NCBI GenBank assembly: GCA_903813345.2
Contig: CAIIXF020000008.1
Location: 8,707,278 to 8,771,277, forward strand
Direction: 5' to 3'
From: Owenia fusiformis
Lineage: Eukaryota; Annelida; Polychaeta; Sabellida; Oweniidae
Length of the DNA: 64,000 nt
In this document: positions 953-39,647 of the stretch, one piece after another
Layout of the letters: every line of letters starts with the position of its first letter
Position numbering within the stretch: the first letter of the stretch is position 1
Position numbers and translations under genes: made by a program
Notes under the pieces: model-generated
What the model saw: the letters and a program-made list of their open reading frames with translations, nothing else
Told to the model about the DNA's origin: nothing
Databases searched by the model: none

Positions 953-1255
953 TACTGGTCATTTTGTCATGTTAATGCCTTGCCTTCTTGTGTTCTATTT
1001 CCAGTTTTGGCAATATGGTCGTTGGGTCAATGTGATTGTGGATGATCGTCTCCCTACATACTATGATCGCCTCGTGTTCATGCATTCTTAAGAGAAGAAT
1101 GAGTACTGGTCATTTTGTCATGTTAATGCCTTGCCTTCTTGTGTTCTATTTCCAGTTTTGGCAATATGGTCGTTGGGTCGATGTGATTGTTGATGATCGT
1201 CTCCCTACATACTATGATCGTCTGGTGTTCATGCATTCTGAAGAGAAGAATGAGT
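953..1255 (+). repeat. 151-bp tandem duplication across a calpain splice acceptor
   Basis: The segment starting at 953 recurs at 1104 (period 151). Each copy holds the end of the intron, the TTTCCAG acceptor and about the first 99 bases of the exon. The downstream copy (acceptor at 1155) leads into the intact exon. The upstream copy (acceptor at 1004) leads into a damaged one. Confidence 0.9.
1005..1103 (+). pseudogene. Truncated duplicate calpain exon with in-frame stop
   Basis: From the acceptor at 1004 the sequence reads [20 protein letters not shown] and onward, matching the start of exon 1156-1289, then hits TAA at 1089-1091 where the intact exon has GAA. It has no donor of its own, since the duplication restarts the intron end at 1104. 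Splicing to this acceptor would give a truncated product or trigger decay of the transcript. Confidence 0.85.
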
Positions 1256-4200
1256 ATTGGTCAGCTCTGCTGGAGAAAGCTTATGCTAAGTATGATATTG
1301 ACCATATATTGCCAGTGAATGATTGATCGAGACATAGAGAGAATATTAATGAATTACAAAGAAACATTATTAAACCAATTATGATATCAAACAAATCTGC
1401 ATATGTAAATGTCTTTATGATTACTGGATATTGTTCTTTTTAGTATTATTGAATGACATAGAAAATGCAAATGACCATTTTCATTAATTTTCTCATTCAG
1501 ATTGACAGGTTCCTATGAGGCACTGAAAGGTGGCAGCACCAGTGAGGCTATGGTTGACTTCACAGGAGGTGTCGTTGAAATGTATGACTTCCGTAAAGAA
1601 GTACCAGCTAACATGTTCACAATACTCACCAAAGCTATGGAGAGAGGCTCCCTAATGGGCTGCTCTATTGAGGTATGCTGCATATAACCACTTTGTTATT
1701 TGAAAAATTATTCAACAGTGTTATTTACAATAAGCTCATGTTCAATGTACAGTTAAGGCAGCATTGTAAATTTTCAATATTTATTTATTTATCAAAAAAT
1801 ATTATCAATGCTGTACATGCAACACGTCATAATCTAAGATACCGCAATTATTATGATTATTAAGATTTTCCCTGTCTACTTATTTATGTGTGTACATATA
1901 TCTAGTTAGGATGGTAATTTGATTGATTACAATTTTTTCTAGGCAAAACCAGGACAGCTTGAGGCTGAACTACCCAATGGTCTGATTATGGGCCATGCTT
2001 ACAGTCTTACTGATGCAAGAGCGGTAAGTTACCAATGGTGATACTTTTACTGTTCAAGTCATTTATACTTGCTAAAATTATCTTGAATTGCTTGAAGTTC
2101 ACTTGTTGAAAATATCCTTGCCCCAAGAATCTTGTGTCTTAGAATTACTGAAGAAATTAAATAAGAAGTTATGACTGTATTTTGTTGGGTTTATTCAGTA
2201 GAGCCTCTGTTTAAATGCCCCTAGTAGTATTGATTATGGATTATTGTAGGTACATATTAAAACCAAGAGATCAAGTGGTGAAATGGAACTGGTTAGAGCC
2301 AGGAATCCTTGGGGTAATGAATGTGAATGGAAAGGAGCCTGGAGTGATCAGTAGGTTACCATGCAGATTGTTCCATTGCTATGGAAATTGATTGGTTGCT
2401 ATGGTAATGACACATGGTCACCATGGTGTTATATTACCAATGTTAATTCCTGAGAGGCTTTTTGTTAAGCTTTACTGATGCATGGTGTTTCTTCCTTTTC
2501 AGACTGCTGAATTGATGTGTTAAACTTTGATTGAGGAGTTTTTATCTCAAAATACGCCTTCCAATTGTTTAAAATGTTTTTACCAAATGGTTCTGAATAT
2601 TAACATGTTGGATTGGCATTTCATCATTCCATTTCAGACTGACAGATTTCTTCATACATGTCATACATCATCACCTTGCTTCATTCAGCTGATTGAGTCC
2701 TCACACTTGTGTATTGTATATTGTTGTGCTGATGCGCTTTAACATGCAGTTAATGCATGACTATGATGTTCAAGATTTGTAATTCTCTCTTGCTTCAATA
2801 CATGCTAACAGGTTAAGATCAAGACTCGCAGGTCTGAAGGTCAGATGCAGTTGGTGAGGTGCCGTAATCCATGGGGTAATGAGAATGAATGGAAGGGTGC
2901 CTGGAGCGATAAGTAGGTTGCTATGATAACCTTGTGTAACCATGTGTGTTACTAAGGAAACCGAATGCAGTGCACCTTGATTTAGTTTCTTCTTATTTTA
3001 AAAAAGGATAATAACAAACAACTTATTTTTCATCTATTATTTTTCCTTTGTACCTATCTGCAGCAGGATTGTATGCAATTATCATAGGATTGAGATCTCA
3101 ATTCTATGTGTCATTTAATGTTTTCCACTAAATTCTACATGATTGACTTTGCTTAAGATCTTTAAGAAAAGGCTGAACCTCTAAATAAAATGTGTGTAAA
3201 TCTTGCAATAACAATTCACACTTATAAAAAGTGTGTTTTCTTAACAAGGGTGGGTGGTTGGACAGAAGAGATGGACTGATGTAAGGGCATGTAGAATTTG
3301 GCGCAAAACTTTTGGGATGACAAAACTAATTGCAAAATGATGTGCTTAAAATCAAAAGCATGTATGCAGTGAAATACAAACAACAGTGTGATGTGAACTG
3401 TGAACAAAATAATATTTGTGCATTAGAATTTAATTTCAGGATGTGCATGACATGTGTGCTGAACTCATTGAAGTGATGATAACATTTTATGTATAACATG
3501 CTCAACTTTCAAGACTCCTTACCCCTTCTGTCTTACTCGGGTTGAGTTGGAGCAGAGGGTGTACAGGGTGTGGAGAGTTAATAACCAAAGACTTGGATTG
3601 TGTATAACAATTTTTTGTCTTAAAGAATGAACTAAGAACAGAGAATTTTGAATAATCCATAGTGTGTACCCATTTTAATTTTGTACTTGATAACCAGCAT
3701 ATGGCATGGAATTCTAGGTTAATATTCAAACCTCCAGGACAAGTGGGGTCATACCAATGGTGCGTGTCCGTAACCCATGGGGCAATGAGTGTGAATGGAA
3801 GGGGGCCTGGAGTGATAAGTAAGACAACAGGAGCTTCTTTAGTGTTGTCATAGAGATTTGATTTGTAGACAAGGGATGATGAAAGTCAGTCCCATGATGC
3901 ATCAGCATTATGTTGATTTCATTGTGATGCATCATTTGATTGGCTGTCACCTTAGATGTTGTGCATGGTGATAGATCTCAGAAGTCATTTGTGAATTATA
4001 CGAATGTCTTCATCACTTTTCCTTTAAAGACATTTTTAGTATATATCACAAATGATCAAATATTTTTGACATTAGATACAGTGTAATGTTACATTGCAAA
4101 ATCAGGATTAATAGCATGTGCCTGTTATGAATACATGAATACAAAAAGCTATTTTGTTCAGTGGTAAGAGTTGTAAGATGCTATTTGATTGCTTCATTTG

Positions 4201-7200
4201 TTGATAACATTAATTTCCAGACTTTAGATCATTAATTGTTATGGAATCTCTACTGGGCCTCTAGGGAGACCAGTTTTGGACTAGTAGAGCTACCCAGAAT
4301 AAATATAGTTTTCAAATCAAATCTTTTTAATGGGACGGGGTAGAATGAAAAGGATATACATGTACATGCATTTGTGTTTTGTTGTGATCACTGAGATTTC
4401 AATGTGACATGCCACACAGTTCACAAAATGAGTTGTAGATTATATTTATTTCATACTTCGTAGATTTCTTGTAGATGTACAATCATATCATATTGTAATA
4501 TTTCTTTGTATTTTGATGTGTATGTTTTTGCTATTTTGACTATTAGATGATTTGGTTGCCTAACATGTATGACTTAATATGTTGTATTAACACAATATTA
4601 TCATTTAGATGAAGACTGGTTATGTTGATTTGCATAGCATGGCTCACATATGGCACTAGGAGTACTGGATTTTGTTGCCCCAATATACAAATGTATTTCA
4701 ATTGTAGATACAAGTTAATATTCTATTTGGCTTGGTCATAATCAGAAAAGTTTAAATTATATTGAGGCCTTATCTGCCTCAAGTCTGACTGTGACCCTGC
4801 TTAGACCCTGGTGACACCATCAGACCCTGGTGACACCATCAGACCCTGGTGACACCATCAGACCCTAGTATGTAGCACCCTGTAATTAATATGTCACTTT
4901 ACTTATGTTTGTTATTGCTAATTTTGGTATTACTAGAGAAAATCTACTTGTTCATTCTGGAATAAAGTTTGCACTCATTTATATAGGAAGAACTGTCTAA
5001 AGTGAATAAACATTATTACTTTATTTCCCATTTGTGTATTTGAATATCGTTTGTCAGTCTGTGTGTTTACACTTTAGACAGGTTAAGCTATTTAGAAACA
5101 CGACTCATAAGGATGTCATTCAGATTTGAGAAACAAACATTGTGTTCAAATTTGAGCATGGTGACATTTTAATGAATAGCTGCATGTATCACCATTGTTG
5201 AGTTTCTTAACAGCCTTGTTTTGTGCCTAATAGCCAACCTGTTTGTCTTATGTAGTGCAATATTAGAACCCCCCGATCCGAGGGTAAGATCCAGTTGATC
5301 AGAGCCCGCAACCCCTGGGGCAATGAATGTGAGTGGAAGGGGGCGTGGAGTGACAGGTACACCCTGGTAATGTATTATAGAGTGATGATTCAACATCACA
5401 TTGTGTTAAGTTTAGTATGAGGAGCTGGTGGCTTTGGTGGTATATGGGTATGTAATACGAAGCCTATTGTCTGGATGCTAATATTCCAATAATATTGACT
5501 AATATGCTAAACTGCTAAACTTACTAAAAAAGATTATTTAACTAATAAAAGAACCTGGTTATTCCATTAACTTCCTATAAGATACTTGTGATATCTTAGA
5601 ATAATAAGTATCTAAAACTGGTGGAGTAAATGTATATTAACTGCTTTGGTGAAAGTAGCATTTATTTGATGTCTTTCTAAAATTAAAGATTAAATAAAGT
5701 AAATTTTCAACATCTTTTAAAATATAATTAATTGATTTGATATTTTGTTAAATTAATTAACATTGTATGCATTCCATAAATAATATATGAAGGAAAACAC
5801 AAAAATCTTAACAATCAAAGAAGTCATGCATTTTTACAACATCATGGACTTTTTACAATAATATTCTTTGTTTATAATAATAAAGCTAATTTAGCATAAA
5901 GTATTGATTTGTTATATATTCATTAGTATATGTGTTTTGAATGATACACTTAGGTAGATACGCATTTGCAGAGTAAATTTTTAGATTTAAAAAACATGAG
6001 ATGCTATAAACCCTAGCTCTGGGGGTGGATAACCCCTCCTTGGTAAGATATACATCAGTTAAATTGCTATATTGAGTATTTTGTGAAGAACTCTTATAAC
6101 ATGATTTGAATGTTCTTGCAGGTCTCCTGAGTGGAACTACATCCCAGAGGATGAGAGACAAGAGATGGGACTCACCTTTGACTCAGATGGAGAATTCTGG
6201 TAGGAGAATCTGACATATGATCATAAAATATAACCACAATAATTGAAGTCTCCAATGCCTTTTGACATTTTTGAAATACCTGAGCACAGTGTGCATTATA
6301 CAGATTTCATTATACCTACCTGTCTTAAACTGAAATATGAACTATTTTTTGAAAAATCATCATCAGATTGAAACTAGCTGGCCACTGGTTTAGTGCTAAT
6401 GTCTCATGTCACCTTGTATGTAAATGTACACATTTTTGATTCCAGGATGTCATTCCAGGACTTCACCCACAACTTCCAGAAGATTGAGATATGTAACCTG
6501 GGGCCTGATGCCCTCACAGAGGAGGAATCTGGTGGCAAGAAGAAATGGGAAGCAACCAGTCAAGATGGATCTTGGCGTAAACGAGTGAATGCTGGAGGTT
6601 GCAGAAACTTCCTTGGTAATTCATGCATTTTATGGTATTTTGAGGAGAGATTAAAAAGTAGTTGTTTTATGAGAACTAATTTAAACTAGGCTGAGCTAAC
6701 ATTTGCGAATTAAACTGCCGGCTGTCAGCTGATGACTTGACAGTGATTTGATTGCCATTTTGTGGCACTCATTTAAATATGAATAATACCTGCAGCTATT
6801 CATATTCATATGTAAATAAGTTGGCCATGGAATGGCAGTCAGCTGACAGAATCAAATTTCTTCGTGAATGTTAGCCATGACTCACCTGAATCTGTTCTTT
6901 ATTTCAACTTCTACATTTTGTGACCTACATGTATGTGCTTTGACATTCTTTAGATACGTTTTGGACCAACCCCCAGTATCGTGTACATGTAACAGACCCG
7001 GATGATGATGACGATGAAGACCTGGGCACAATTTTAGTTGCATTACTCCAGAAAGAACGTAGAAAGAAACGTAAAGAAGGATTGGATCTTTTAACCATGG
7101 GATACTCCATCTATAGGGTAAATAATACATGTTGTTTTGTCATCTATTGCTACATTGTGCAAGAGCTTTCTTAAAATAGAGACAATTCTTTGACCTAGCT

Positions 7201-10200
7201 TAAACAGATATTCATCAATACACAACATTTTCTGCCTATGTTATGGTTCCAGTTCCTACTCTTTCCTTCATTATAACAAAAACTAGTTATGAGTCAGTAT
7301 TTGGTGTCAGATGGTTTCAAATTTTCAGTTAAGTATGGTTCAGTTTTTAAATCCCTTGGTTCTGTTTTCAGTTGGGTCATTCGGTTCTTATCGCACTTTT
7401 ATATTCTGCTATGCGCATAAGAATGTAAAACAGAACTAGCCTGCATGATTGCCATGTATTTGATCTTACTGGCTATGTCTTGATATTTCACAAATGTAAT
7501 TCTAAACATTTAACTGTTAAAATAATATGTGTCGGCTGAATCTGATGTTTTGATGCTTATAACTGTCTTACCCATCAGCGTCTTTCTCAGCATCCACAGC
7601 AGACATTTTCTTTTACTACGTTATTTAAGCAAACGTGCATTTACAAATGGTAATTTTCCCGCAATTAACATTGGACCTGTCTAGGCCAATAACAGTCCGA
7701 GCACTGCAGTTTTGGTTAAATGTCTGTAGTCAGTATTCATATATTATGTGGATTCATTTTCTAGGACTCTGATATCTGAGGTAAAAATTGGAAATAATAT
7801 AAAACAATTGGAATGAAATTTCTTATGGTACCAGAATCAGTGGCATAGCGTGGGTATTTTGTGAGTGTAAGAATCGAACGATCTTTGAGGGGGTTCCCCT
7901 CCTTTGAAATTGAGAATGCAGTTGAAGCGTTCTGGGGCATTTTAAAATACCAATTCCGACTAATATGGACTAATGAAATGTAAAATATTAGCCATTTTTA
8001 AAGTGTGGGGCAATTCAATCTAAATAATCAAATTTTCTCTAAATTTTGAGAGTACGACATGGCGTTCTATGAGAATATTCACCAAACATCTAATCTTGTA
8101 CGTTACTATTTCAGCTGAAAGACCCAGACTGTGGACCGCTGGATCTAACTTTCTTCAAGTACAATGCATCCTGTGCCAAAGCCCCTGCCTTCATCAACAT
8201 GCGTGAGGTTTGTGGACGTCATAAGCTACCTCCAGGTCATTACTGTGTCATGCCTTCAACCTTCGAACCCAACCAGGAGGGTGACTTTCTCTTGAGGATC
8301 TTCTCAGAAAAGGCTGCCGAGGCTGGGTAAGATTCTTTATCATTTGTTTTGTCATCACCAGAGGCCTTATTCACAAAGCATTGCAATTTGAATGCGACAT
8401 CGCAATTTTGGCGCGGTATTCACAATGACAAGATATCGCAATCGCGTAGCAATAGCAATCGTATTAGGATAGCAATGTGTTAGCAGCTTTACTGTAACAA
8501 ATAAAGTAAACATAGGATGGTTGAAATGGTATTTAATTGATTTACGACTGTCCGTGAGTTAATAATAAAAACAAAGATTAAATAAAATAAAATTGTTGTG
8601 TTTAAATGATTTTATAGACCCAACATCCATTTATTTGAAATCGCGTAGCAATAGCAATCGCATTAGGATAGCAATGTGTCAGCAGCTTTACTGTAACAAA
8701 TAAAGCAAACATAGGATGGTTGAAATGGTATTTAATTGATTTACGACTGTCCGTGGAGCTAATAATAAAAACAAAGATTTTAAATAAAATAAAATTGTTG
8801 TGTTTAAATTCTATTTTGATGGGTATGGGAGGGGACCCGCTCAACCCTCTCAAAATTATATCTTCTAGGAACTTTGTTTATGTTAGCTGTTTTCCAATAA
8901 TCGTTCCATCAATCCCCTTCATTGCCTCAAATCGTCCACTCCTCCATATTTTTACAATACAACGACGATACCTCTCGATCATCTCATGATCATCGTAAAT
9001 ATCCAATGGATGTGTTCTGTCACGAATAAACCTCGGTCTTACTAGATGCTGTCTGCGGTTCACCGCTATCACCGCCATTTTGTTTTACAGTGTCTCAGAC
9101 GACTGATAATGGCGGGAATTATAAAATTGTGATTCATTGATAGCAATTTTAGATGAAACATAGAAAATATTCTTCCATTATTTAAGACAACTTTAGAACC
9201 TTAGTATCTCGTCAGAACACATGAAATGACGATTTTTTAAAATCATATGTTGGTTAGTATACCGAAAAACGACATATTAAAATAGCAAATAATTCTGAGA
9301 ACGCTAAACGCATTTAATTAAAACATAAAGCAACCCTTAATATTGCGACTGTATTGGGGCTGGTAGAGGGTAGTCGCAATTATATGACGCTATTAATGCG
9401 ATTGAATTGCTAAGTCGCAATCGCACTTTGATTGTGAATAAGAATTTTAGCGATTTTTGCGATGGCGATTGCGATGTCGCAATCGCATAGGATGTGACAC
9501 ATTGTGAATAAGGCCTCAGAAGTGGATATATTGCTATAGTCTCCACCTTTTTGTGGATGGTGTTCGGTGTTTTATGATATGTGGTTGGTGTCATTCAGGC
9601 TCTGTAACAAATGGCAGGTGGTGACATTTTGCATGTTAATGCCTTGTTTTCTTTATTTATCATATAAAGAGGAAACTTACATGTGATTCTTGCTAAAAGG
9701 CATTTGAAACTTAGTAACAGTCATATAAAAGAGATGTAGCTTCACAGGGCTGTTGCAATGCTGAGTCAGAATTACTTTTTTCTTATCTCACACAGTGCAT
9801 TGAATAATATGGCTTGCTTGTGGCAAGTTAGTATATTCAGTTAAATAAAATCCTTATTGGCAAACAATTATGAAACAAGAAATCTTCTATTGTCTTACTG
9901 AGTGTTAAAAGATTGTCCTTCTTTAGGTTTTGAAGTTCGGTTTCAAGTTTCTGTACATGAAACCTCTGTTATGAAAATAAAATATTCCTGCTAGTATCTT
10001 CTCTTACAACCAGGCTATAACCAACGTTATAATCTGGCAATTAGTTATAACATGGGCTTTTAAGAGAAGGGCATGCATAAATATTGCCTAAGGTTTTTAA
10101 AATTGGAGGAAAATGCTCCATGTACTCAAAAATAAAAACATGATTATCTGCATACATCTCGTATAATACAGAATGGAATTCATCATAATTTGTTTTATAT

Positions 10201-13200
10201 GCCTCTGTGAAATCGGAACATTCCTCACAAATTACATTTTTATTGGAATGCGTTCTTGAATAACTACCCGCTATACAATATTCAAGGATAAGCGTTTGAT
10301 ACCTCTTTTTCTTATTTGTTCAAAATTGATTTTTTTTTCAAGATAAAAAATATACATCCATCTAATACTCTCTGAAATATGATCAAAAAAGGGAAGCATG
10401 ACAATGCTCATTTTGAAGTTCTCATGTTTATAACACAGAGTAGCATACCCTTCTCATGAAAGCCTATGGTTATAAATAATATTTATTGTCTCTGTACATA
10501 CATATACGATGGCGTAGCGTCATATGCGCATAAAACGCCATGGCGTACTCTCAAATTTTAGAAAACAGATTTTTTATATTGAATTGCTCCACACTTCAAA
10601 AATGGATAAAAATGGCTAATAATTTACATTATATTCGTCCATAATAGTCGGAATTTCGTATTTCAAACGCCCCAGAACGCTTCAAATGCAATCTCATTTT
10701 CAAATTTTCTTGGGGGGACCTACCCCGAAGCTCCCCCCCCCAGAGCACGTCTATGTCGCTCACTCGTGGCGTACACTCACAAAATACCCACGCTACGCCA
10801 CTGATATATGTTTTTGTCAAATGTTAAAGGGAGTGAAAGTAGAAATTACATTAAACTTTTTCAATCATTGAAAGATGTCACTTCAGTAAAAGTGGCAAAA
10901 TAGATGGCAGCACAAATCATCTTTGAACTAGGAAGTGAAATGAACAACTTTGACCTTTAGAAATCTTCCAACTTTTACAAGACAAGTAGTTTCCTGAAGT
11001 TCAGAACCAAGCCATGATATAAATAGCAATAATTACATCTGCAAGGTGCTGTTCTTGATTAGAGCTGATATTGATATCTGGTGAATGTAAAGGTTACAAA
11101 GATAAACTTGTGTATAGGTGCAACTAGGAAGCAAGATGGAGTCTTGAGGTCAAACTGGCCTCTGATATGTCTGTTCATAGACTCGGGTAGACAAACATTA
11201 CGTTGATTCTGGCAGGAAGTTGGGATGTTATAATGGATGCATTGTTTAGATAGTATATCTTGGATAAACAAATATTGTGTCAATAACAGACTGAAAAAGT
11301 GATAAGCTAAATCTACCTGTTGATATCAAACTGCATCATATCATACGTACTTAGCTTGTACAAACAAACACTGATAGCGATCTAGAGAAAGCCTTAAAGT
11401 ACAATTAATCAGCTATGGCATATCCAAGGTCTCGATACCACCCTACTATGAAGCTAGGGATGGATCCCAGGAGATGGGCTTATGTAACAGGACAGCAGGG
11501 AGGTTACCCCTCAGCTGGGTTTAGCTACCCTCAATCTGGGGGCTTTGGACAAACACCATATCCTGCACAACCAGGACTAGGCTTTGAATCATTAACAATA
11601 AGTGATGGGGGAGCAGGTTATCCACCCACAAATCACGGATATCCATCCCAAATGCCTGGAGGATATCCCCCATCTGGACAATCTGGATACCCTCAAGCAG
11701 GTTACCCACCAACACAAGGTGGTTACCCACCAACACAAGGTGGTTACCCACCAACACAGGGTGGTTACCCACCAACACAAGGTGGTTACCCACCAACTCA
11801 AGGTGGTTACCCACCGACACAAGGTGGTTACCCACCGACACAAGGTGGTTACCCACCGACTCAAGGTGGTTACCCACCCCCTTCTCAAGACTTACCGACT
11901 CAAGGGGGGTATCCTTCAGGCCAACCTTCATATAATCCAGCATATGCACCAGGTGCTCAACCAAACTATCCTGCACAACCAAGTTATCCAGCTCAACCAA
12001 GTTATCCATCCCATCCAGGTGCCCCTGGGAGTGCACACCCAGGGGGAAGCTATGGCCAGGGGTATGATGCAAGTCAGGCATCTGGTCCAGTAGATAGGTA
12101 TACAGGGTGACTCATACTTAATGAGTTCTATACCACTACATTAATTATGAGACACCCTGTGAACAGACCCGAAGATTCCCAAAATTTGATATTAGCCCTT
12201 TGGACATGTAACTGAAATTCTTTTTCATCCATGATGATTTTACAAGATGGGGAGTAGCAGTTGTGGATCTGGCTAAAATGGGCATTGTGTGGTCCTCATT
12301 TTAGAAAAAAGGTCTCATATTAATTGATAAATGGGCTTTCCTCGAAAAATAATACATTAATAGAGTTTATGTTTTCAATATTTTCAAGATGTTACTTAAA
12401 AAGTCACAAAATTTGACTAAGTAAAACATATTGAGCCTAAAATACATGTGCCTGTCGACCTTGCCAGCTATATAAGGAAGAGGGGTATGTTACCTTTGAA
12501 CAATGAAAATATTGCAGAATCATAGTAGGACTCTAATACTGCAGTTGCACTTTAGCTATGCTCCAGTAATGAGACTCCCACTATTTTCAGATAAAGTTTA
12601 AGAAAATTTTATAAGAAAGTGTTTCTCTTTTCTTGGATTATTGATTGAGTATTGAAAAGGGTTATTATCAATATGGGCATTCAGTACATTAATTTGACTT
12701 GTCTGAATTGTCTGTTTTCGTTTCAAGTCAAAAGTATTTGTGGAGCCATACTTGCTTGATAAAAAAGTAACTTGTGAATCTGAGGGTCTGTCTGTGCATG
12801 GCTTGTACTTTTAGAGAAAAGTTATAATGGTTGAAACTTATTTTTAACTACTATCCACCAGTATGGGTAATGAAACAACACTGTCACATAATATTATCTA
12901 GCAGCCACAAATAATATATTTTGAATAGCATGTAAGTTGAGCTAGTGGTTGGTTGTATCAGTCACCGATCTGTTGATTCCGCATTTGCAGATGTCAATGT
13001 TCATGTTAACCATTAGGTCATAATGCCCTAGAGATAATACATTAATTGTTAGCTTTTTTTATCAAATACCTAAAAGAATGTAAAAAATATATAAATAGGG
13101 CTTCATATAAACTGTATGTAGCATTGACCTGAAATGACATGTTGCCGAATTCTGTACAAGCACCATCACAAAACATCATGGTTTCATTGCATATATTATT

Positions 13201-16200
13201 TTTGAAGTATATGTGCATTTTTAAAATGTTATCCATTGCTATACTATAGAGCACCATCAACACATATTAACTTGGCAGATAGTTTGTGAATTTTTACACT
13301 CACTGTCAGTTAATAGCTGATCGAGAAAAAATTCAAGGGGTTAATCAAAAGTTATGTTATTTTGAATATGTAAATTCAGTAAATTTTCGAACCACTTTAT
13401 TGACTCATATCTTGAATCTAAATCCTAAATCACTCAGTAAGACTATAGGAGGATAAATTAAAGAAGTAAGAAACAAATGTTTAATTTAAATTTCCACAGT
13501 TAAAATGTTATGTTTTTATGTCCCCACCACATAGTGTGGGGCCATATTGTCGGCCTAGGCGCGTCCGTCCGTCCGTCCGTCTGTCCGTCCGTACGTCCGG
13601 GAGTTTTCTCCAAAACCGCTACAGATATCACCTTCAAATTTTCAGGGATAACTTATGAGTGCATACAGATGTGGATGAAAAAATTTGAACTCGATACCTA
13701 CTTCCTGTCGGCCATTTTGAAGTCAAATGCTAAAATCCTTGTCTGCAAACTTTAAGAAAAACGGCTTCACAGTTGCTTTTAAAACTTTAACATCTTGTTC
13801 AGCTCACTTCATTCTAGATCTGATTAGGTTTTGGACCTGTTAGCTCAGTCATGTCAGCCATTTTGAATGTCTTAAGAAAAGTTAGCGCACGATAATACTT
13901 TGTATCATATTGAATGGTGTTTCTGAGTTTTCATACTTTAACTATTTTGTAGCTTTATAAATAATTGCAGATGTACTTTGTTGTAAAAGCCTATGTTATT
14001 ATTAAAAGTAGTTATATGTGATAATTTTGTAAAAAGAAATCAGCAAATACTCATAATCACTTTTTTATTGTCGGCCATTTTGGATTTTTCCGTCCTAAAA
14101 TCTTGTCTGTGAAGTCTTGTCTACGTGTTTTCAGGTGAACCGTTTGGTGGATCAATTTCAAATTTTCAGGGATGATTTTTAGTATGAAAATCTAGATCTG
14201 ATTAGTTTTTGGCATTCTGGGTAAATGTCAAGGCAGCCATTTTGGATTTTCCGTCCTAAAATCTTGTCTGTAAAGTCTTGTCTACGCGTTTTCAGGTGAA
14301 CTATTTGGTAGATCAATTTCAAATTTTCAGGGATGATTCTTAGTATGAAAATGTAGAACTGATTAGTTTTTTGGCATTCTGGGTAAATGTCAAGGCAGCC
14401 ATTTTGAATTTTCCGTCCTAAAATCATGTCTGTAAAGTCTTGTCTACGCATTTCCAGGTGAACCGTTCTGTAGATCAATTTCAAATTTTCAGGGATGATT
14501 CTTAGTATGAAAATCTAGATCTGATTAGTTATTTGGCATTCTGGATAAATGTCAAGGCAGCCATTTTGGATTTTTCGTTTTAAAATCATGCCTGTAAAGT
14601 CTACACGTTTTTAGATAAACCGTTTGGTAGATCAATTTCAAATTTTCAGGGATCATTCTTAGTGTGAAAATCTACATCTGATTAGTTTTTTGGCATTCTG
14701 TGTAAATGTCTTGTTTACATGTTTTCTATTGAACTGTGTGACGGATCAATTTAAAATTTTCAGGGGTGGTTCTTAGTTCTTAAATTTTAAGGTGGCCATT
14801 TTGGATTTTCCGTCCTCAAATTGTGTTGGTAAAGTCTTGTCTACTCATTTTCAGGATAACCATTTGATGGGATCACCCATTGGTGGGGACATATTGTACA
14901 CATTTGTGTTCTTGTTTCAATTTGTTACAGGGTGTTCACCAGTTTTGAGACTGAACATGACTGAGAACATTTAGATAATAACAATCCTGAAAAATTCTAT
15001 ATGTTTTAAGGAAATACTGTTTCCAAATTTTTGTTAAAAACTGTTCAGTTATATTTTTTTTATTATTAAGAATGAAAAAGTTGTCAACTTTCTTAATTGA
15101 TACTGTTTTATTTAGAGTGTTCGAAGAGAGGTTGGGCCAAATTGGAGTAATGTGCTGCATCTCAGTCTATAAACCTTGTGGTCACCCTGTATTTTTGGAA
15201 GTAAATTGCAGTTGTTTTATTTCATTTTTTGTGTATTTGCAGAGAAATTGATGAGGAGACAGGAATCCAGGATATTGATGTAAGTTTACATTTAATATTT
15301 GCATCTTCATATATATATACAGATGTACTGTATTCTTGTTTCAACCTTTTATTTCTATCTTTGTTGAATAATATACATTACAGTTTTCATAGACAACCAT
15401 TTGTTTATCATTTAGATATTAATACACAAAAGAAACGATGTACAAATAGGAGCTTCGTTATTACATCTATACATTATTTCCACTGCATAAATTTCTTACT
15501 AGAAATGAATCATTTAAAATTGAAAAACTGGAATTACTTTATTGGAAGAAGTTCATTTGATTTAACCAGGTATGAAATTATCCAACAGAGATAAAAATAA
15601 GAGTCCCAAGAGTGTATCTTGTCAGGCTTATGTAGATGAATTCGAGGTATGTCCAAGAAGTTCCTTGAGCTAGCCGGAACTTTTTGGATAGCCCTCAGTG
15701 TAGGCACCTTGTAGTTTAGGAGGTTCATACTGAACACACTTTGAGAGTCTAGTCATAAAACTGACACAAGTGCATGGTATCTCAAGCAATGTGGTCATTA
15801 AAAGGATTTTTGCCCACAATTCTTGTGCAGTAATTTGATGAAGATGTAAAAATGAAAAAAAGTCTTGCATCAAGTTCCTGTGTCAAGCTCACACTTATTT
15901 TTCTCCCAATGTAAGGTTAAGGAATAAATACTGAGGGAAAGGGTTAGAGAATGGGTAGAGGTGAGGAAAGGGTAGAGACTAGGGGAATGGGTTAGATTAG
16001 GGGAAAGGGTAGAGACTGAGGAAAGGGTAGAGACTAGGGGAATGGTTAGAGATTAGGAGAATGGGTAGAGATATGGGGAATGGGTAGAGACTAGGGGAGG
16101 GGCAAAGGCTTGATGCAAGACTTGAAGTTGAACAATCTTTATTTAAATATCACCCAAAGTGTGCACAGTACATTTTGTAGTCAATTATTAAGAGTCTAAT

Positions 16201-19200
16201 GTAATGTAGTTTACATCTACATTTACATGATTGATTCTTAAAGTTGTGTAATAATACCCAAAGACTCCTTTACATATTGTTTGCATAGTTCATATATTTA
16301 TATTTTATTGACTCTCTGATGTCATTACAATGACATATTAGTCACAAATATCATTATTTGATAATTTGATGTAACAAATTCTTATATTATAGAATATATT
16401 TAAATACATGTCATACAATGTCTTCAAATCAATTTAAACATAAAAGTCTCATTCTCTTCTCAGTGGTACACATGTAAATTCTGTATGTTCAGTAGAGAGC
16501 CTTATAGACTATTAGACTATCTTTCCGTCTCTTATACTCTTGAAACCAATATTATAAACTCCAACCATTGAATAGGCTCAGCTGTTAGAGCTTAACTGTA
16601 GAAGATCAACTGTTGAGGTATACTGTTGAAGATTTATACTGTTGAAGATTGACTGTTAGAGCTCATCTATGGAAGTTCAACTGTTATACCTTAACTTTTA
16701 AACTATTAGCCAAACTGTTTATTATGTTGCTATATGTTTAATTTTACCTATAGTACTATGTAGTTAATGTCAGTGAATGATAACTGATATTGAACATAAA
16801 ATTGAAATATCATTAAAATATGTAATATCAGTCATCAAGCATTGGCTCTGGTAGATAGTAAGCTTAATTTTACATGATCCCCTAGGAGCCGGATGAAGCT
16901 AATGACGCAGCAGTTGTAAGTGCTGACACCTGGTGTCTGTTTTGCTTCCCATAGTTAGTCGAGGAATGCTTTCTTCTAGCTTGCCAAAGGATGTTTTTCC
17001 ATAATTTACTAAACTATGTGCGATTTTCCATTCTGGGATTTGACCTTTAGTCCCAAGAGGTTTCTTCCCATAATCCAATGATTCAGAGGTGATGCTGGTT
17101 TCTTTTAGATATAAAGTTTAACTTATACAGACTTAATAAATACAATAATGTTTAAAGGAAGTAGAAGGGATATAGAGAGTGTATGTTAGCAGAAGTCTTG
17201 TTCAAAAAGAATGCCAAACAGTTGAGATATCTCATCAAATATACATGTAGAAGTTATTGATGATTTAATATGTAGAAATTCAATAGCATTAAAAATTGGT
17301 TGTCCCCTTTCTCAAAACTTACGCATTGCCAAGACAACCTAAAACATCAAAAGATTATCCTGAAAACTGTTGGACCTTTTAGAAAATAGGCACGACGTAG
17401 AATCAGATGAGAGCAAAATTATTGCAAAAATGTAATTATTTTCTCAAATTGTACTCTCAGTTTGTTGGTAGCCCTTCTACTTCTTTGCACTGGGGGTAGG
17501 GATGATCTGTTCCTTTTTATCTAGATAGCACTGTAATTCAACATGGCGCTCTTCTAAAGGAAAATCAGTTCAATTAACATTTTACATTGATAAATGTTTA
17601 ATGCTATTAAATTTAAAGTCTCTTTCATGTGTTTGACACGTATTGTTAAATGTGTGCTTGTGGACTGATGTGAACTGAAGTGAATACTTGTGTGTTTCTT
17701 ATAACTCCTCCATGTACAATTGCCCTTGATTGAAACTAGGTTTTATATCAATAATCTTGTCTCAAAATGATGTTCTTTGGGTGTTGACATTGATTGAATG
17801 TCTAATACTACTCAACTGCTACATGTTACACATGTATTTCCACATGTGTTCTGTGATATCGAAAACTAACACAAACAAATACTTCATTGTATACAATATA
17901 AATATTTAAAGCATTCTTTATTGAATATTTTTTCAAAAGGCACTACATTATTTAAAATTTTGTAGTTTAGACTTTATATTTCTTATTCTGCTTCAAAGCT
18001 AGTATAGTTAATAAGACCATCTCTGTATCAAGTAGATGCTTTGCTATATTATTTCATCTTGAACATTATCTTCATACTGTGCTTTCACCCTATATGTGAG
18101 GAGAACAATAGAACAATGGTGATTTTTGCTGAGAAATTACAATATGATGTTTGCTGAAAAGTCACCCTATGTCTGCTCCTTCCACTTAGGATGCCTTTGT
18201 TCTGTTGCATTATTTCTATTTATAATATATAGCACAACTGTTTTGTTAGACTATGTTATTCTTTAGATAGTATGTACATACAGCCTCTACAATATTTTGT
18301 GATAAGTTTCAGGCCTGTGGCCAAGATTTGCCAAGGGGGTTCACTTTTTGAAAAATTCCAGGGGGGTTTACTTTTAACAACTTGGCCCAAAAATGCCCAA
18401 AATACTAGTGAGTGAGTTTTTCCTTGTTGCTTGTCAATGAAACATAAGCACCAGCTCTGAGACCAGTTAGGTTTGTATCCCAGTTAGCTTATTTTATTCA
18501 GTATATGTGAGAAAATAACATGGTGACAGTCCATCATTCAGTTTTCACCAATTTGTCAAGAATCATTTCAGAACCATGTTTTGGTCCTGTTTTGTTCTTA
18601 AAGCACCACTGTATTTTAAATTTTACCTGATGTACATACTACTAAAATCTATAGAATATTTTTCATCCATGATAAGGCAAAAGCAAATACAAGAAATGAC
18701 AAGGTAATTATTATGCATAACATCCCAAGGTTTTCATTCCAATTTTGTAATATCAAAAATGTTTTTGCCTAATCATGAGATACTTCACTGAATATTTACT
18801 TAGATGTTTCACTCTGCTATACTTTCTATTAAGGAATTTCAGCCACACGAGCCACTTAAAATCCAAATCATATCAGCCCAGCGTGCGTACAAGTCGGGCA
18901 GTGGTGTAGGTGATCTCTAACACAGACACTCCCCATCCTTTCCTCTAACTATATCCTAACACTCTTGGCTTTAAACTCAACAACTTACAAACGCAAAAAT
19001 TGTTAGAGTTACAACAATTTTGGTTTACTACTAAATCCTCTTTTGATGAAATCTGAATTTTGAAATACTCAATTTGTTAAATGCTGCTCTTTCAGTTGAA
19101 GGCATCAGTTTTATTCATGGTTCACTTTTATCAGATCTTTGATGGTGACTATTCATGAGAAAACATTTTCAAAGTACTTTAAAAATGTCTCTTGGTCTTT

Positions 19201-22200
19201 AGTGTCACATTTATTCTGATCTGAAATATTATTTAAGGTAAGCCTGGTAGAGTGAGTTATCTTGTTGTGACCTTTCACAAGAAGGTTTACACATTGATAT
19301 CATGTATGATCAGCAGGGATTGAAACTTACAGCTGCCTGACTGCCAATAGCAATTACGTTGCACTCTTGGCAATGAACTTGGAAAAATGAGTTGCCTATT
19401 GGGCAATGGATTGAATGCCAATATGTTGAATTGGGCAATCATATATTCGAGCTTAGTCATGAACCCTGATGATCAAGTTTAAAAAATTATTCTACAAGGC
19501 CCTCCTTAAAGCTTGCTTAATTTGGAAGGTTTTATTGTATTTCTCTCTATAATTAAGGTATTGCTTATCTAAAATATTTGTTTTTATTTTTATATTGTTT
19601 CCCTATGCACAATAAGTATTATTTAACTACTCTTTTTGATTGATATTTACTTTTTGCTCATGATTTTGAAATTGTCATTTGCACAGTTTTTACTGTCTCA
19701 TTGTGTAAATAATATGTCCCAGCACAGTGTGTGTAAGAGTGTTGGAAGTGAATGCAACTTAAAGTAGAACATGCATCTCGCCAATCAGGTGCAGAGTTGT
19801 ATTCACTTCATTCGTTTCTATGATACCACCATAACAGTGTGAACTTTGAGAGTGATTGTATGAAATATGACGTGTATGATTAGATTGTACTGATGAATAT
19901 CTCCATCCTATGACAGAAGAACAATCCATGTGTACTAGATTTCAGCTCTTATTCAATTACATGGGTTTAACACCTGCAAATTATACATTTATTTGGTATA
20001 CCCCCAGGAATAATTTCTGTAACTTTGTTGAGTTTGTCTATGGAATAATGGAACATATGGCTTGTATTGGTCATACTTAGTATGTATATCGGAATTAGCA
20101 ATATGTTTGTATAATCTTGTATGATAATGCCAAATAGGTATATAATTCTTGAAAAGTTTTGATATGTCCATCTATTCATTGTTCAATTCTAAAGGAGAAA
20201 TGCATTTTTGCGATTATCTGATTGTTTAAAGACATGCTAAGGCAAATGACACTTTCCTCTCAATTAATTGTGCCGTATAACATGTAGTTCCAAAAAAGTT
20301 CTGGTTTTGACATTTTTGAAACAATTATTTATCTTAGCAATTCTTCAAGAACCCTATAGCCCCAGCATGTTCTCCGGGATGTGTAAGTTAGTCTATACTT
20401 CTAATAAGATAGTATCCACATCATTTAAAGTCCCCGTCTAAAGTTTGAAAATATTTTTTTATCATTCATTTACTATTTGTCAGGACTTAAAAAGTGATTT
20501 TAGAGATTTTTGAACAAAAAAAAAATTTTGGAAAAAAAAGTTGTGAGCATTTCATTTCTCAAATATTCAAATTTCCCGCCATTTTTCAAAAAGAGTTGAA
20601 ATTTCTTAATCATCAAATATTTCTTAATGCATTTCAAAAAAGATTATCTTTTTAATACTTATGCAAAGGTTGAACAAAGGACACACTATTTCAATAATAA
20701 AATGCCATATTTAATGGGCCACTTCAATGTTTTAACATATCAAAAATATTTTGAAACATTAGTGATGTCACTAAGGTACCAATATCTTTTTGAAAAAAAT
20801 TGAAATTTTTTTTTCGATGTCAATCTTTTCTAAATATGTTACACTTTCATAAAAAAAACAATGTTGATTGTCTAACCAGGTTAAAAGGAAGAATAAATTA
20901 TGTTTTAGGTATCATTGTACCATTGGTTTCTATGAGAACTAAAATTTTGAAATGCATTTTTCTCAAAACCATTTTCATGCACTGATAAGTTCATTTCTCG
21001 CTTATTTATGCACCGATTTTCTTAATTTTTTCGGCAAAAAACGTGAGAGGATGAATGCTCTGCATTCGTATGAATTGTGGCTAATTAGAAGATATGAGTG
21101 ACCTCTAAAAGTTGGTTTTAAATAAATTCACAAATTTTGGAACAAAAAGTCTATCAAAAACCACTTTTTGAAATTAAAAAAAAAGTTTCACATATCACAC
21201 TTTGATAACATTGGGTAAGACTACAATATAAGCCAAAGTGGTTTAAACTTTATATGGGGCCTTTAAGCAAAAACCAGCCATATACAAGTTAAGAATCTTT
21301 AAAATCATATCACATTCTATTTCTAACAAGTATCAACTTTTTCTCTTTTAGCCTCCACCAAAGACAGATGAGGACGTTGCCCAGGATGAGGCTCTTAAGT
21401 CAGCTTTTATTGGCATTGCTGGTGAAGACATGGAGATTGATGCTTATGAATTAAAGGATGTCCTTGATAAGGCTTTCAAGAGAGGTAAACATGCACTGTT
21501 TATGTTTTTGAATCAGTAATTTTTGAATGTAATGAATTAAGCATCTTTATTTGACTGGGTGTTCATAATGTTTGTTACTTGTTTGTGTAAACAGCAGTAT
21601 ATTGTTGAAACAAACGTTTTCTGCCTCGCAAGTTGCATGGATATTTCCAGATATATTGTTGCTCTTATCATCTTAGTCTTTGTAATATCAAAATGATCAT
21701 TGTGAAAAAGTAATACAACAGATAAATGACTTTTGATGAATTACATTTTGATGAGATTTTGGTAGATTATTAATAAATCTCCATAGTAACTATATATTAT
21801 ATATATATTATATATGCATGTTATCTATTTTTGTGTCGGAATAATAGCCATACGTAAGGTTTTATAATAGTATGGATGTGACACTATAGAAATATAGAAG
21901 TGCTTAGAATTTGATATATGTGTGCTTTAACTGACTTCGTTTCAGGGTTTGGTTCAGGTCTTTACAACTAGCAATGATTCTCTCCTTGCTTTATATATTT
22001 TATAAATTTCACAATTTCTAACCATGATTTTGAAATTATTGTAAAAGAGCCTGTTGTTAAAGATAATATTTTTATGTTTTGAAGGGGTTTTCAATCAAGA
22101 TAAACTATTTCTTTGTGAGAACTGTTGTATTTTTGTTGTACAGTGCATATACACATGTAGTATCCAAGTTATATAGCCCCTTGCTACAGCCATCAAGCCA

Positions 22201-24553
22201 ATACTTCTTCCAACAAAATCAGGATATGCCGATACAATACAACATGTAGCTGTCATGCCCTTCTTGATAATTTGGATACTGCATGTGTTATCAGATGTCA
22301 TAAATTCACAGATTTATTTTCCCAAAACATTTTTTGAATATGTAGTATTGCTTTAGATGTTGTTAACCAAAGTAACTGAGAGAGTGTAATGTTAAGATAT
22401 CTATGAACTTTTCTTTATGAAAATGACCTGAAATATCCAAAATGACAAATGTTTAGAATATTCTGATGCAGAATGTTCCAATAATGTTCAACACACATTT
22501 TAATACATTCCATCAAGAAAAATGTCTCTCTCCATCATTGACTTGCATGTTAGATAATAAAAAAATTGTTGTTTAACTTCATAGAAGGACACAGCTAATT
22601 TACAATAAAACCTGTGTATATGAAGACCTCTTTTAAGTGAACACTCAAAAATGAACATGCAGATATCTCCTGAATTCCCCCATTTGATCAGAACCTTTGA
22701 GTGTGTCCCATTGTTCCATTTTTCCAGTTTTAACAGACAATCTATGTTCACTGATGTTTTACTGTACTTATTATTCATTATTGGTTTACTTTTATTTCAG
22801 AGTTCAACTTTGATGGCTTCAGCAATGAGACCTGTAGGAGTATGGTGGCTATGAGAGATGTATCCTTATGAGGCAATTAAGAATCACTGTGAAATTAATG
22901 AATGGCAATTATAGTTATTTCATCACAATCATGTTTTAGCAAAATTACTGCATTCCCACTGACCCTCGAAAAAAATATTTGAGATAGTTGTACTGTTCTC
23001 ATTGAACTTGATTTCCCAGCCTCTGTTGTACTTTTGAATTTTAATGATCATCGATGTTAGATACCATAAGATTCTTTATAATTCACTTCCTTAACCCTGC
23101 CAGTTTGATCGCTCTGGTAAGCTAGGATTTGATGAGTTCAAGGAGTTATGGGCAGACTTGAGAGTGTGGAAGGGAATGTTCAAGAAGTTTGATCAGGACA
23201 AGAGTGGACACCTCAACAGTTATGAGCTGAGGAAATGCCTCAATGGAGCAGGTATGTGATAAGTTATGGCACTAGATTATGAACTCTTGATCTTTGTTAC
23301 AGATCCTGCCTTCAAGTAGTTACTAAACCTCTACAAATTTGGGTAAAAATATTTTTAAGTAGATACCCTTACATTCAATAATTAAAAAAAAATACAGTTC
23401 TAATGTACAGTGCCATAATAAAAAATGGTACTATACTTTCTTTTTCATATATAACATACGATACGTATATTATACATGTACTTTCCTTATACATGACAAT
23501 ACTTTCCTTGTGCATGAAATGTACTAGTATTATAATTTTCTTACTTATTTCTTTCTGGTTCAGGCAAGATTGTTTGTGCTAGTTTGAGTGGTCCACGACT
23601 CGTATAAAAGACTGTGGTGTGTAATTGTATGTCTTTGTACTGGTGCACACTAAAGAACACTGGGTTCCAAGGGGTTCCTGGCTCTGTCTTCGAGTGTAAA
23701 ATACATAAAATACAGAAAATACCAATTAGGAATTGCTTGCCGATTATGGCAGTAACCAAGATACAATACAATACACATGTACTTTCTTTTTAGGCTTCCG
23801 TATCAGCAACTCTACATTCAATGGCCTGGTGATGCGTTATTGCCACAAGGACGGTCATATTTACTTTGATGACTTCATACTCTGTGCCGCACGACTCAAG
23901 ACAATGTTTGGTAGGTTAAAGCAATATATATTTTGACACTAGGGTAATAGTTAGGTGAAATGTATTCATTTTGAGCCTTCTGACCTCTTTTTGAAAAATG
24001 TTTTGTCAGCCTATGGTAGATCACAGCCTTTTCTGACTGGCCTCCCTCCTGGCATCCATATCATAGGATATCTTCTCTTCACATTGATATACAAGTATAT
24101 TTCATGTTACAATGTTCTTTGCTTACAGATATTTTCAAGGAGATGGACCCCAATAAGACAGGCACAGCTGGGTTCACTCTCGATGCAGTAAGTATTATGA
24201 TTATATATATTTGTACAATTTACCATTACAATATACCAGTATACAAATAAAATGTACCAAACAACTAAGTTGCACGCAATAAATACTGGGAGTAAAGTAT
24301 TGGCTAAATTAATGTCAAACTTTGCAACCAGCATATAATGTCAAACTTTGCAGACAGCAATCTTTATGACCAAAATTGTAAGTTTTGAAAATTGGAATTG
24401 AAATGATCCTGTGTTCCAGTCACATCATAATATCCAATAGGAGTTTCTTGAAATTAATTCCTGAACACGTTTACTTGTTCTATTTTATCTGTTTTTCAAT
24501 TTAAAATCATTGTTTTCTTGTTTCAGTTTGTGCAGACTACAATGTACTCATAA
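1156..24553 (+). CDS. Classical calpain (PEF-type cysteine protease), 3' part of gene
   Basis: Calcium-dependent cytosolic cysteine protease. Coding exons read: 1156-1289, 1501-1672, 1943-2023, one of four 101-bp exons (2250-2350, 2812-2912, 3718-3818, 5256-5356), 6122-6199, 6446-6615, 6954-7117, 8115-8326, 15243-15279, 16886-16915, 21352-21484, 22801-22859, 23104-23251, 23794-23910, 24129-24187 and 24527-24553 (TAA). Phases agree throughout and give 573 residues in this window. Seen: [20 protein letters not shown] and [14 protein letters not shown] of the protease core, the catalytic His in [13 protein letters not shown], the catalytic Asn in RNPWG, a C2-like domain with acidic loop [11 protein letters not shown] and the [12 protein letters not shown] motif, then a penta-EF-hand domain ([25 protein letters not shown]) ending FVQTTMYS. 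The catalytic-Cys exon is upstream of position 1. The family is certain; the paralogue is not resolved. Confidence 0.95.
2250..2350 (+). CDS. Calpain alternative exon 4a (catalytic Asn loop)
   Basis: 101 bp, preceded by TTGTAG and followed by GTAGGT. It starts in phase 0 and ends two bases into a codon. It encodes [20 protein letters not shown] and continues [13 protein letters not shown]. The Asn of RNPWG is the catalytic Asn of papain-fold calpains. It is the first of four exons of equal length and phase that fill the same slot between exons 1943-2023 and 6122-6199. Confidence 0.9.
2812..2912 (+). CDS. Calpain alternative exon 4b (catalytic Asn loop)
   Basis: 101 bp with acceptor AACAG and donor GTAGGT, same phases as 4a. 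It reads [20 protein letters not shown] and continues [13 protein letters not shown]. It has a Cys just before the RNPWG motif and NEN where the other copies have NEC. If 4a and 4b were both included, 4b would be read out of frame and reach a TGA after about 15 codons, so co-inclusion is not productive. Confidence 0.9.
3718..3818 (+). CDS. Calpain alternative exon 4c (catalytic Asn loop)
   Basis: 101 bp with acceptor TTCTAG and donor GTAAGA, same phases. It reads [20 protein letters not shown] and continues [13 protein letters not shown]. The residues before the Asn motif (IPMVRV) are the most divergent of the set, while the RNPWG core and the EWKGAWSD end are unchanged, as expected if the copies stay functional. 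Confidence 0.88.
4803..4868 (+). repeat. Short minisatellite in calpain intron
   Basis: Three copies of the 19-bp unit AGACCCTGGTGACACCATC, followed by a partial fourth, lie between alternative exons 4c and 4d. Confidence 0.85.
5256..5356 (+). CDS. Calpain alternative exon 4d (catalytic Asn loop)
   Basis: 101 bp with acceptor ATGTAG and donor GTACAC, same phases. It reads [20 protein letters not shown] and continues [13 protein letters not shown]. It lies closest to the common downstream exon (6122-6199). It uses more G and C at third codon positions than the other copies, which suggests the copies are not very recent. Confidence 0.88.
7841..8072 (+). mobile_element. MITE-like repeat, copy 1 (GTGGCATAGCGTGGG family)
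   Basis: The sequence begins GTGGCATAGCGTGGGTATTT and matches, in opposite orientation, the repeat at 10510-10800 over most of its length (shared GAAGCGTTCTGGGGC, TTAGCCATTTTT and GAGTACG-CATGGCGTT blocks). It lies in the calpain intron just before exon 8115-8326. Its outer end is worn. Confidence 0.65.
8362..9516 (-). mobile_element. PIF/Harbinger-like element with transposase fragment
   Basis: Terminal inverted repeats AGGCCTTATTCACAA are flanked by CAG on both sides (8359-8361 and 9517-9519), a likely 3-bp target duplication. On the - strand, 9078 down to 8878 encodes a short peptide with [20 protein letters not shown] followed by [11 protein letters not shown]. This resembles the N-terminal end of Harbinger transposases (arginine-rich, then NPL-x-Y-DD-x-E-RYR). 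No catalytic domain is present, so the copy is non-autonomous. Subterminal regions are rich in GCGATTGCGATGTCGC-like words. Confidence 0.7.
8441..8790 (+). repeat. ~200-bp direct duplication inside the Harbinger-like element
   Basis: The block starting TCGCGTAGCAATAGCAATCG at about 8441 recurs at about 8641 and includes CATAGGATGGTTGAAATGG and the ACGACTGTCCGTG segment, with only a few differences. It is an internal tandem duplication of the element. Confidence 0.8.
9590..9650 (+). repeat. Dispersed repeat with copies at 49890 and 61110
   Basis: CTGTAACAAATGGCAGGTGG followed by TGACATTTTGCATGTTAATG. A close copy is at 49890-49945 (+) and an inverted relative at about 61105-61160. It begins 70 bases after the Harbinger-like element. 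Family unknown. Confidence 0.6.
10510..10800 (-). mobile_element. MITE-like repeat, copy 2 with TGGCGTAGCG terminal repeats
   Basis: The ends TGGCGTAGCG and CGCTACGCCA are inverted repeats. The interior is an inverted relative of 7841-8072. It holds a run of C (about 10732-10741) and no convincing reading frame. No clear target duplication was seen. Confidence 0.65.
11018..11026 (+). promoter_or_regulatory. Candidate TATA box upstream of GYP-rich exon
   Basis: TATAAATAG matches the TATA consensus about 390 bases upstream of the ATG at 11415. If used, transcription would begin near 11050 and give a leader of roughly 360 bases with several upstream ATGs. This is only a sequence match in AT-rich DNA. 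Confidence 0.3.
11415..12097 (+). CDS. GYPPTQ-repeat alternative first exon inside the calpain gene
   Basis: An open frame starts at ATG 11415 (purine at -3 and G at +4), with an in-frame TAA nine bases upstream. It encodes a Gly/Tyr/Pro/Gln-rich tract with eight tandem copies of a GYPPTQG heptad (21-bp DNA repeat, about 11699-11866), then [16 protein letters not shown] and SGPVDR. The donor AG|GTATAC at 12097/12098 leaves two bases of a codon, the same phase as the donor at 8326, so it joins exon 15243 in frame ([10 protein letters not shown]). The product would be about 227 low-complexity residues, then the linker and the penta-EF-hand domain. That is the layout of calpain small subunits and peflin. 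An unspliced reading ends at 12110. A fully separate nested gene remains possible. Confidence 0.6.
13517..14893. mobile_element. TIR element with CGTCC microsatellite and 162-bp tandem core
   Basis: The ends are TATGTCCCCACCA (13517-13529) and its inverted match at 14881-14893. After the left end come a (GTCC)n-like tract (about 13561-13600) and then direct repeats of about 162 bp, seen from GCCATTTTGGA starts at 14073, 14236, 14398 and 14560, with further degenerate copies. No transposase was found. It lies in the intron between the GYP-rich exon and exon 15243. Confidence 0.7.
15861..16122. mobile_element. Small TIR element filled with purine-rich minisatellite
   Basis: AGTCTTGCATCAAG at 15861-15874 is inverted as CTTGATGCAAGACT at 16109-16122. 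Between them is a strongly strand-biased purine tract built from variants of GGGTAGAGACTAGGGGAAT. No reading frame. Confidence 0.65.
18843..18905 (+). CDS. Candidate 63-bp calpain cassette exon (linker)
   Basis: It lies between AATTTCAG and a GTAGGT donor of the same form used by alternative exons 4a and 4b. Its length is a multiple of three, it has no stop in the phase set by the flanking exons, and it encodes [20 protein letters not shown] plus one Gly. It would insert between [10 protein letters not shown] and PPPKTDEDV, just before the EF-hand domain. It is not required for the frame, so it could be an optional cassette or a chance fit. Confidence 0.4.
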
Positions 24554-36527: not shown

Positions 36528-36528
36528 T

Positions 36529-36546
36529 TGGTGGCAGCGGTGGGAT
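36529..36546 (+). other. Primer-binding site, matches tRNA-Leu 3' end
   Basis: TGGTGGCAGCGGTGGGAT begins one base after the 5' LTR. It is complementary to a tRNA ending ATCCCACCGCTGCCACCA, as in animal tRNA-Leu (AAG type). The tRNA match is from memory. Confidence 0.7.
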
Positions 36547-36561
36547 CTGTTGCTTTAGAAG

Positions 36562-39357: not shown

Positions 39358-39632
39358 CAGAGGAGCCCAAATGGCTCCTTCCCTAAATGTGACAATCTTA
39401 AGTTAAGATAGTTAGTTGAATGAGCAATTACTGATCATGATCATGTGATTTTTTTGAGAGTATATAAGTGTAGATAGAGTGTTGATTGAGCGAGTATTGA
39501 TGATAATGCTGTAACTTTTTTAGAGGAGATAAGTTAGCTCTTTACTTGTATTTATTTTTGTAAGAGGTGCTCGAGCTCTCTATGTATTTTTGTAGAAGTT
39601 AAGTTTATATTGTGTGATCGTGGGCGATCAAG

Positions 39633-39647
39633 CTTAGTAGGGGGGAG
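39633..39647 (+). other. Polypurine tract
   Basis: AGTAGGGGGGAG immediately precedes the 3' LTR, the usual start site for plus-strand synthesis in LTR retroelements. Confidence 0.75.

Follow-up and report, generated by a model that had tools for sequence, protein, structure and literature searches.

A candidate internal first exon in a classical calpain gene of Owenia fusiformis that could yield a small-subunit-like penta-EF-hand protein

Can a single invertebrate calpain gene encode both the protease and a small-subunit-like partner of its own? To our knowledge, invertebrate classical calpains have been described as being without a small subunit, and a literature search brought up nothing relevant on small subunits in invertebrates or on calpain promoters located within a gene. 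The question is raised here by a Gly/Tyr/Pro/Gln-rich open reading frame (ORF) that lies in an intron of an Owenia fusiformis calpain gene, upstream of the exons for the penta-EF-hand (PEF) domain. A sequence-only reading had proposed that this frame is an internal first exon, from which the locus would make a calpain small-subunit-like protein in addition to the protease. How probable we call this and the competing readings is a matter of judgement and not of computation.

Host calpain gene and the frame in its 6.9-kb intron

The window, the whole 64,000-nucleotide stretch analysed, corresponds to C8:8707278-8771277 of the 498-Mb genome, and its first 24.6 kb hold most of the calpain gene (Table 1). 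When joined at GT/AG borders, the calpain exons in the window form 564 codons with a terminal stop only. Pfam matches of the host gene included Peptidase_C2 (E 8.9e-84), Calpain_III (E 7.8e-48), and EF-hand families. The gene is therefore a classical (PEF) calpain with a Peptidase_C2 core, domain III, and a C-terminal PEF domain; the exon with the catalytic Cys (GDCWLLAAIASL) and the earlier calpain exons lie upstream of the window. Exons 15243-15279 through 24527-24553 form a single frame ending in VQTTMYS and a stop, and the EF-hand matches in Pfam bear out the earlier claim that exon 15243 leads into EF-hand exons, as the downstream exons rebuild a complete PEF domain. An AATAAA signal is present at 24695, 3' of the last coding exon.

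Other features of the window were also recorded. Four tandem 101-bp exons (2250-2350, 2812-2912, 3718-3818, and 5256-5356) have equal phase, splice borders, and intact frames, and each encodes the part of the calpain that carries the catalytic Asn motif RNPWG. They have the appearance of a mutually exclusive set, whose use would alter the protease around its active site. A tandem duplicate of protease exon 1156-1289 with an in-frame TAA is located at 994-1115, with the intact copy downstream. Outside the calpain gene, a minus-strand frame of 1293 codons (29281-33162) encodes many C2H2 zinc fingers and an acidic, repeat-rich N-terminus. The region 35487-41397 is retroelement-like, with near-identical segments near 35487-36032 and 40852-41397 flanking gag-like and CCHC/protease-like frames (36559-39357).

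The 6.9-kb intron between calpain exons 8115-8326 and 15243-15279 contains, on the same strand, an ORF of 231 codons from 11415 to 12110 (MAYPRSRY...DRYTG, then a stop). It is open stop to stop from 11409, and a TAA at 11406-11408 stands two codons 5' of the ATG, which has G at both -3 and +4. The earlier description of an ATG-started, Gly/Tyr/Pro/Gln-rich frame with eight heptads and an in-frame stop just upstream is thus confirmed. In the encoded sequence, Pro accounts for 21% of residues, Gly for 20%, Tyr for 12%, and Gln for 10%. Like the N-terminal domain of CAPNS1 the sequence is Gly-rich and, judged from its composition, disordered, being Gly/Pro/Tyr-rich and not poly-Gly. No Pfam family was matched by the ORF, and no ALG-2-binding motif (PPYPXnYP or PXPGF) or PPxY motif was found in the GYPPTQ tail. 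The only PDB match of the tail was to the RNA polymerase II CTD heptads, which we set aside as compositional likeness. The exon is single-copy in the genome, the remaining genome matches being low-complexity.

Table 1. Coordinates of the calpain exons and of the features in the 6.9-kb intron (positions in the window)
Feature	Position	Strand	Basis
Protease-domain and first domain III exons of host calpain	1156..7117	+	joined frame, GT/AG borders, Pfam
Exons within 1156..7117	1156-1289, 1501-1672, 1943-2023, one of four 101-bp alternatives, 6122-6199, 6446-6615, 6954-7117	+	
Last C2-like (domain III) exon of calpain protease, phase 2 at its end	8115..8326	+	joined frame, Pfam
GYPPTQ-rich exon proposed as alternative first coding exon (from ATG through donor 12097; 12061 equal-phase alternative)	11415..12097	+	
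21-bp tandem repeat: eight GYPPTQ heptads and a partial unit, differences all synonymous	11700..11878	+	
18-bp tandem repeat, YPAQPS-type hexapeptides, within frame of 11415 ORF	11955..12008	+	
TGA ending 11415 frame if intron retained	12108..12110	+	
Recent repeat copy in same intron, outside GYPPTQ exon	13509..14926	+	dozens of copies, many at 90-98% identity
Small linker exon (EIDEET), phase 2 in, phase 0 out	15243..15279	+	joined frame
PEF exon 1 (PPPKTDEDV..., EF1)	21352..21484	+	joined frame, Pfam
PEF exon 2	22801..22859	+	joined frame
PEF exon 3 (EF2-EF3)	23104..23251	+	joined frame, Pfam
PEF exon 4 (EF4)	23794..23910	+	joined frame
PEF exon 5 (EF5)	24129..24187	+	joined frame
Last coding exon, ...FVQTTMYS then stop	24527..24553	+	joined frame

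Coding character of the GYPPTQ-rich frame

By internal tests the frame is coding: the differences among the heptads are silent, the G+C content depends on codon position, and the length exceeds what is expected by chance in an intron. Over the 170 codons outside the heptads, G+C was 0.62, 0.63, and 0.27 at the first, second, and third codon positions, and none of 20,000 within-codon permutations was as extreme. The periodicity of this part was 0.36; among 503 windows sampled from non-coding DNA nearby, none exceeded 0.126. In 500 simulated 6.9-kb introns the longest ORF had a median of 89 and a maximum of 168 codons (vs 231 here), while the 170 non-heptad codons stayed open in 0.8% of Markov sequences with matched dinucleotide make-up. 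All three variable columns among the eight heptads fall at third codon positions. As the heptad array is open in all three forward frames, it adds little to the argument from openness. Synonymous codon usage of the exon was unlike that of the calpain exons, and codon-usage likeness was discarded as an uninformative line of evidence.

The first 28 codons (G+C 0.50/0.54/0.46) have no strong periodicity, which leaves the exact 5' end less secure than the GYPQ-rich body. The stop just upstream and the G at -3 and +4 make 11415 the likely translation start. These properties bear on whether the frame could be a decaying or chance ORF, that is, a minisatellite-containing remnant of an exon or a captured gene whose expression has been lost. 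Such a remnant would account for tandem repeats that are open in every forward frame and for a 5' end that carries no coding signal, but it fits poorly with non-repeat flanks that are intact, open, and strongly periodic, or with heptad differences that are all silent. We consider it unlikely.

Splice sites, transcript ends, and paralogous loci

Donors were scored with a matrix built from 17 donors of the host calpain gene. The donor at 12097 (TAG/GTATAC) scored 7.1, which ranks it in the top 2% of GT sites in the vicinity; the donor at 12061 (GGG/GTATGA) scored higher still, at 8.65. The exon sequence ends in ...GTAGATAG at 12097 and in ...GGCCAGG at 12061, and exon 15243 begins with AGAAATTGATG; both donors leave two codon bases, and exon 15243 opens with the one base required. 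A further in-phase donor at 12106 was rejected for its low score. The sequence-only reading had placed weight on donor 12097 being in exactly the phase of exon 15243. That observation stands, and its significance is reduced: GGG-TAT and AGG-TAT codon pairs (G-Y/R-Y) put GTAT in phase 2 anyway, which makes the phase match weak evidence. Likewise, exon 8115-8326 does end in the phase of both donors (phase 2), as had been stated and as the joined exons agree.

Acceptor scores in this region were poor. The acceptor beside the ATG (11413) scored -6.4, and those in phase for joining from 8326 ranged from -9.6 to 0.5 (-0.24 at 11429, -3.3 at 11471, -2.7 at 11474, and 0.46 at 11525), compared with a median of 6.0 for the true acceptors of the gene; between roughly a quarter and a half of random AG sites do no worse. 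Use of the acceptor at 11525 would remove GYP-rich sequence. The lack of a good acceptor, both near the ATG and in phase from 8326, means that the segment resembles a first exon and not an internal one. A candidate acceptor at 11216 (score 5.2) could serve to join a distant non-coding 5' exon, which would leave the protein the same.

The acceptors also weigh on a cassette exon, in which some full-length calpain transcripts would include the segment between 8326 and 15243, so that a long GYPPTQ-rich linker separates the C2-like domain from the PEF domain. Both flanking exon borders, 8326 and 15243, are of phase 2, and the equivalent C2L-PEF position of Aplysia AplCCal1 is alternatively spliced, with inserts a, b, and c (Hastings et al. 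2017, PMC5650170). This precedent makes a cassette a serious rival. However, the Aplysia inserts described there are only 4-14 aa long, and the acceptor scores at the present locus count against such an exon, which we regard as rather improbable.

No AATAAA or ATTAAA was found from 12110 to 13456, about 1.3 kb 3' of the TGA, although base-composition arithmetic predicts several by chance in such A+T-rich DNA. This speaks against a transcript ending there and fits an intron. It is also a difficulty for two readings in which the TGA at 12110 would be used. In the first, protease and domain III would be joined to the GYPPTQ exon as an alternative last exon, so that a GYPPTQ tail replaces the PEF domain. 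The frame does terminate in a stop, and truncated PEF-less calpains exist in molluscs (PMC5650170), but the splice would depend on the same poor acceptors as the cassette and no poly(A) signal is nearby; this outcome appears very improbable. In the second, a nested stand-alone gene would use the whole ORF in a separate transcript that ends at 12110 or runs into calpain-unrelated exons. Its strength is that the ORF runs unbroken from ATG to stop and was not found in the searched paralogous calpain loci. Against it, besides the missing poly(A) signal, stand the lack of a Pfam family and the fact that, apart from low-complexity matches, the rest of the genome showed no homologous GYPPTQ gene. A nested gene is therefore unlikely as well, if the least so of the alternatives.

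A genome search with the host PEF domain returned further loci on C5, C2 (two), C3, C1, and C6. Full calpains are encoded at C5, at C3, and at one of the two C2 loci (C2a). In C5 and C2a the intron ahead of the linker has the same phase but a length of only about 250-270 bp, vs 6.9 kb in the host gene; the linker is a separate exon in C5 and is fused to the first PEF exon in C2a. A GYPQ-rich exon on the sense strand was absent from the fetched C5, C2a, and C3 loci, which as in-genome paralogs provide a weaker test than relatives would. The C1 locus, which looks like peflin, has its own GYP-rich exon, which ends in phase 1 and not phase 2 and showed no detectable homology to the 11415 exon in the genome search; the C6 locus resembles a free-standing PEF gene. 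Among the loci of this non-exhaustive search, none was a separate CAPNS1-like gene.

Two further observations were made at the paralogous loci. An antisense frame of 291 codons, with PQG-rich repeats and hydrophobic stretches, lies within a large intron in the C5 paralog (minus strand, about C5:8714461-8715334); considered as an equivalent exon, this ORF looks unrelated and lies in a different intron. The region at C2:26917523, about 35 kb from the C2a calpain, holds a calpain PEF fragment with an in-frame stop, possibly a partial duplicate.

For transcription from within the gene, the earlier reading had postulated an internal promoter. TATAAAT at 11018 is the only nearby TATA and makes a promoter upstream of 11415 possible. 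The + strand of the window has 30 TATAAAW matches in all, and transcription from the 11018 TATA would put six ATGs ahead of the one at 11415.

Predicted short protein and its relation to known PEF systems

We favour, with slightly better than even confidence, the reading of 11415-12097 (or to 12061) as an alternative first coding exon of the calpain gene that would give a protease-free, PEF-only isoform. Coding character, single copy, compatible phase, and an intact PEF domain were directly established. The strong in-frame periodicity and a length beyond intron expectation favour this reading, as do heptads that differ only synonymously and an ATG that follows a stop by two codons with G at -3 and +4. 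Further support comes from two donors, 12097 and 12061, that match the phase of 15243 and give a spliced product in a single open frame, and from the phase-2 intron before the linker, which is common to two paralogs. A Gly/Pro-rich tail followed by a PEF domain is, moreover, a known layout, as in ALG-2 (PMC5037681), and the peflin-like gene of the same genome has a GYP-rich exon. The reading is weakened by a phase match that is partly automatic, an unconvincing core promoter, searched C5, C2a, and C3 loci with no sense-strand GYPQ-rich exon, first 28 codons with no clear coding signal, and synonymous codon usage unlike that of the calpain exons. Of the sequence-only reading, the anatomy thus holds, and it is best read as an alternative first exon leading into the PEF exons. 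The phase match carries less weight than supposed, and the promoter stays hypothetical.

As an alternative first exon, the segment would be transcribed from a start inside the calpain gene or after a distant non-coding 5' exon. Translation would begin at 11415, and splicing would lead from 12097 or 12061 to 15243 and on through the PEF exons. We infer this transcription and splice, as well as dimerisation and function of the product, from the anatomy of the locus and from family knowledge. Joined through donor 12097, the frame is open over 421 codons including the stop (420 aa); the 12061 version would be 408 aa by subtraction. The predicted short protein of about 408-420 aa would consist of a disordered Gly/Tyr/Pro/Gln-rich tail joined to a complete PEF domain, and would lack the protease and C2-like domains.

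The host PEF domain matched CAPNS1 at 152 bits (E 1.8e-43), calpain-3 at 139, calpain-1 at 135, and calpain-2 at 132 bits. The PEF domains of the C2a and C5 paralogs likewise score CAPNS1 well above vertebrate calpain-1/2, so the bias is a general property of CAPNS1 and was rejected as evidence for small-subunit identity of the shared PEF; with these two controls, the host PEF is not specifically nearer CAPNS1 than those of other invertebrate large subunits. Accordingly, of the proposed small-subunit likeness, the predicted layout of a Gly/Pro/Tyr-rich tail and complete PEF survives, whereas the bias toward CAPNS1 is generic.

PEF domains pair through EF5 as a general rule (PMC5037681, PMC12205653), and CAPNS1 has a Gly-rich N-terminal domain and binding that depends on EF5 (PMC12205653). 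Judged by this general rule only, it is plausible that the short protein acts as a partner or competitor of the full calpain: it would be expected to dimerise via EF5, whether with itself, with the full-length enzyme, or with further members of the PEF family, and in this way could stabilise or localise the protease or compete with it. Hastings et al. raise a still unidentified stabilising partner of AplCCal1 as a possibility (PMC5650170).

Vertebrate CAPNS1 (CSS1) resembles the predicted protein in having a disordered Gly-rich tail before a complete and closely related PEF domain, and both end in TMYS. However, CAPNS1 is a separate gene, whereas the PEF exons of the present locus are part of the protease gene, so that the PEF domain of the predicted short protein would be identical to that of the long one. 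Peflin, ALG-2, sorcin, and grancalcin similarly combine a Gly/Pro/Tyr-rich tail with a PEF domain but are encoded by separate genes. Aplysia AplCCal1 is a molluscan classical calpain that combines alternative C2L-PEF exons with an alternative transcription start; in contrast to the present locus, its cassettes are short, its alternative start changes the N-terminus of the full-length protease, and the part of the article available reports no PEF-only isoform (Hastings et al. 2017, PMC5650170).

More tentative is the proposition that the protease and a small-subunit-like partner for it come from one invertebrate calpain gene by way of an internal first exon; to this we give somewhat less than even credence. 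If the locus does make a PEF-only protein, small-subunit regulation would exist outside vertebrates, and the small subunit would have arisen there by internal initiation, a route independent of the gene duplication proposed for vertebrates.
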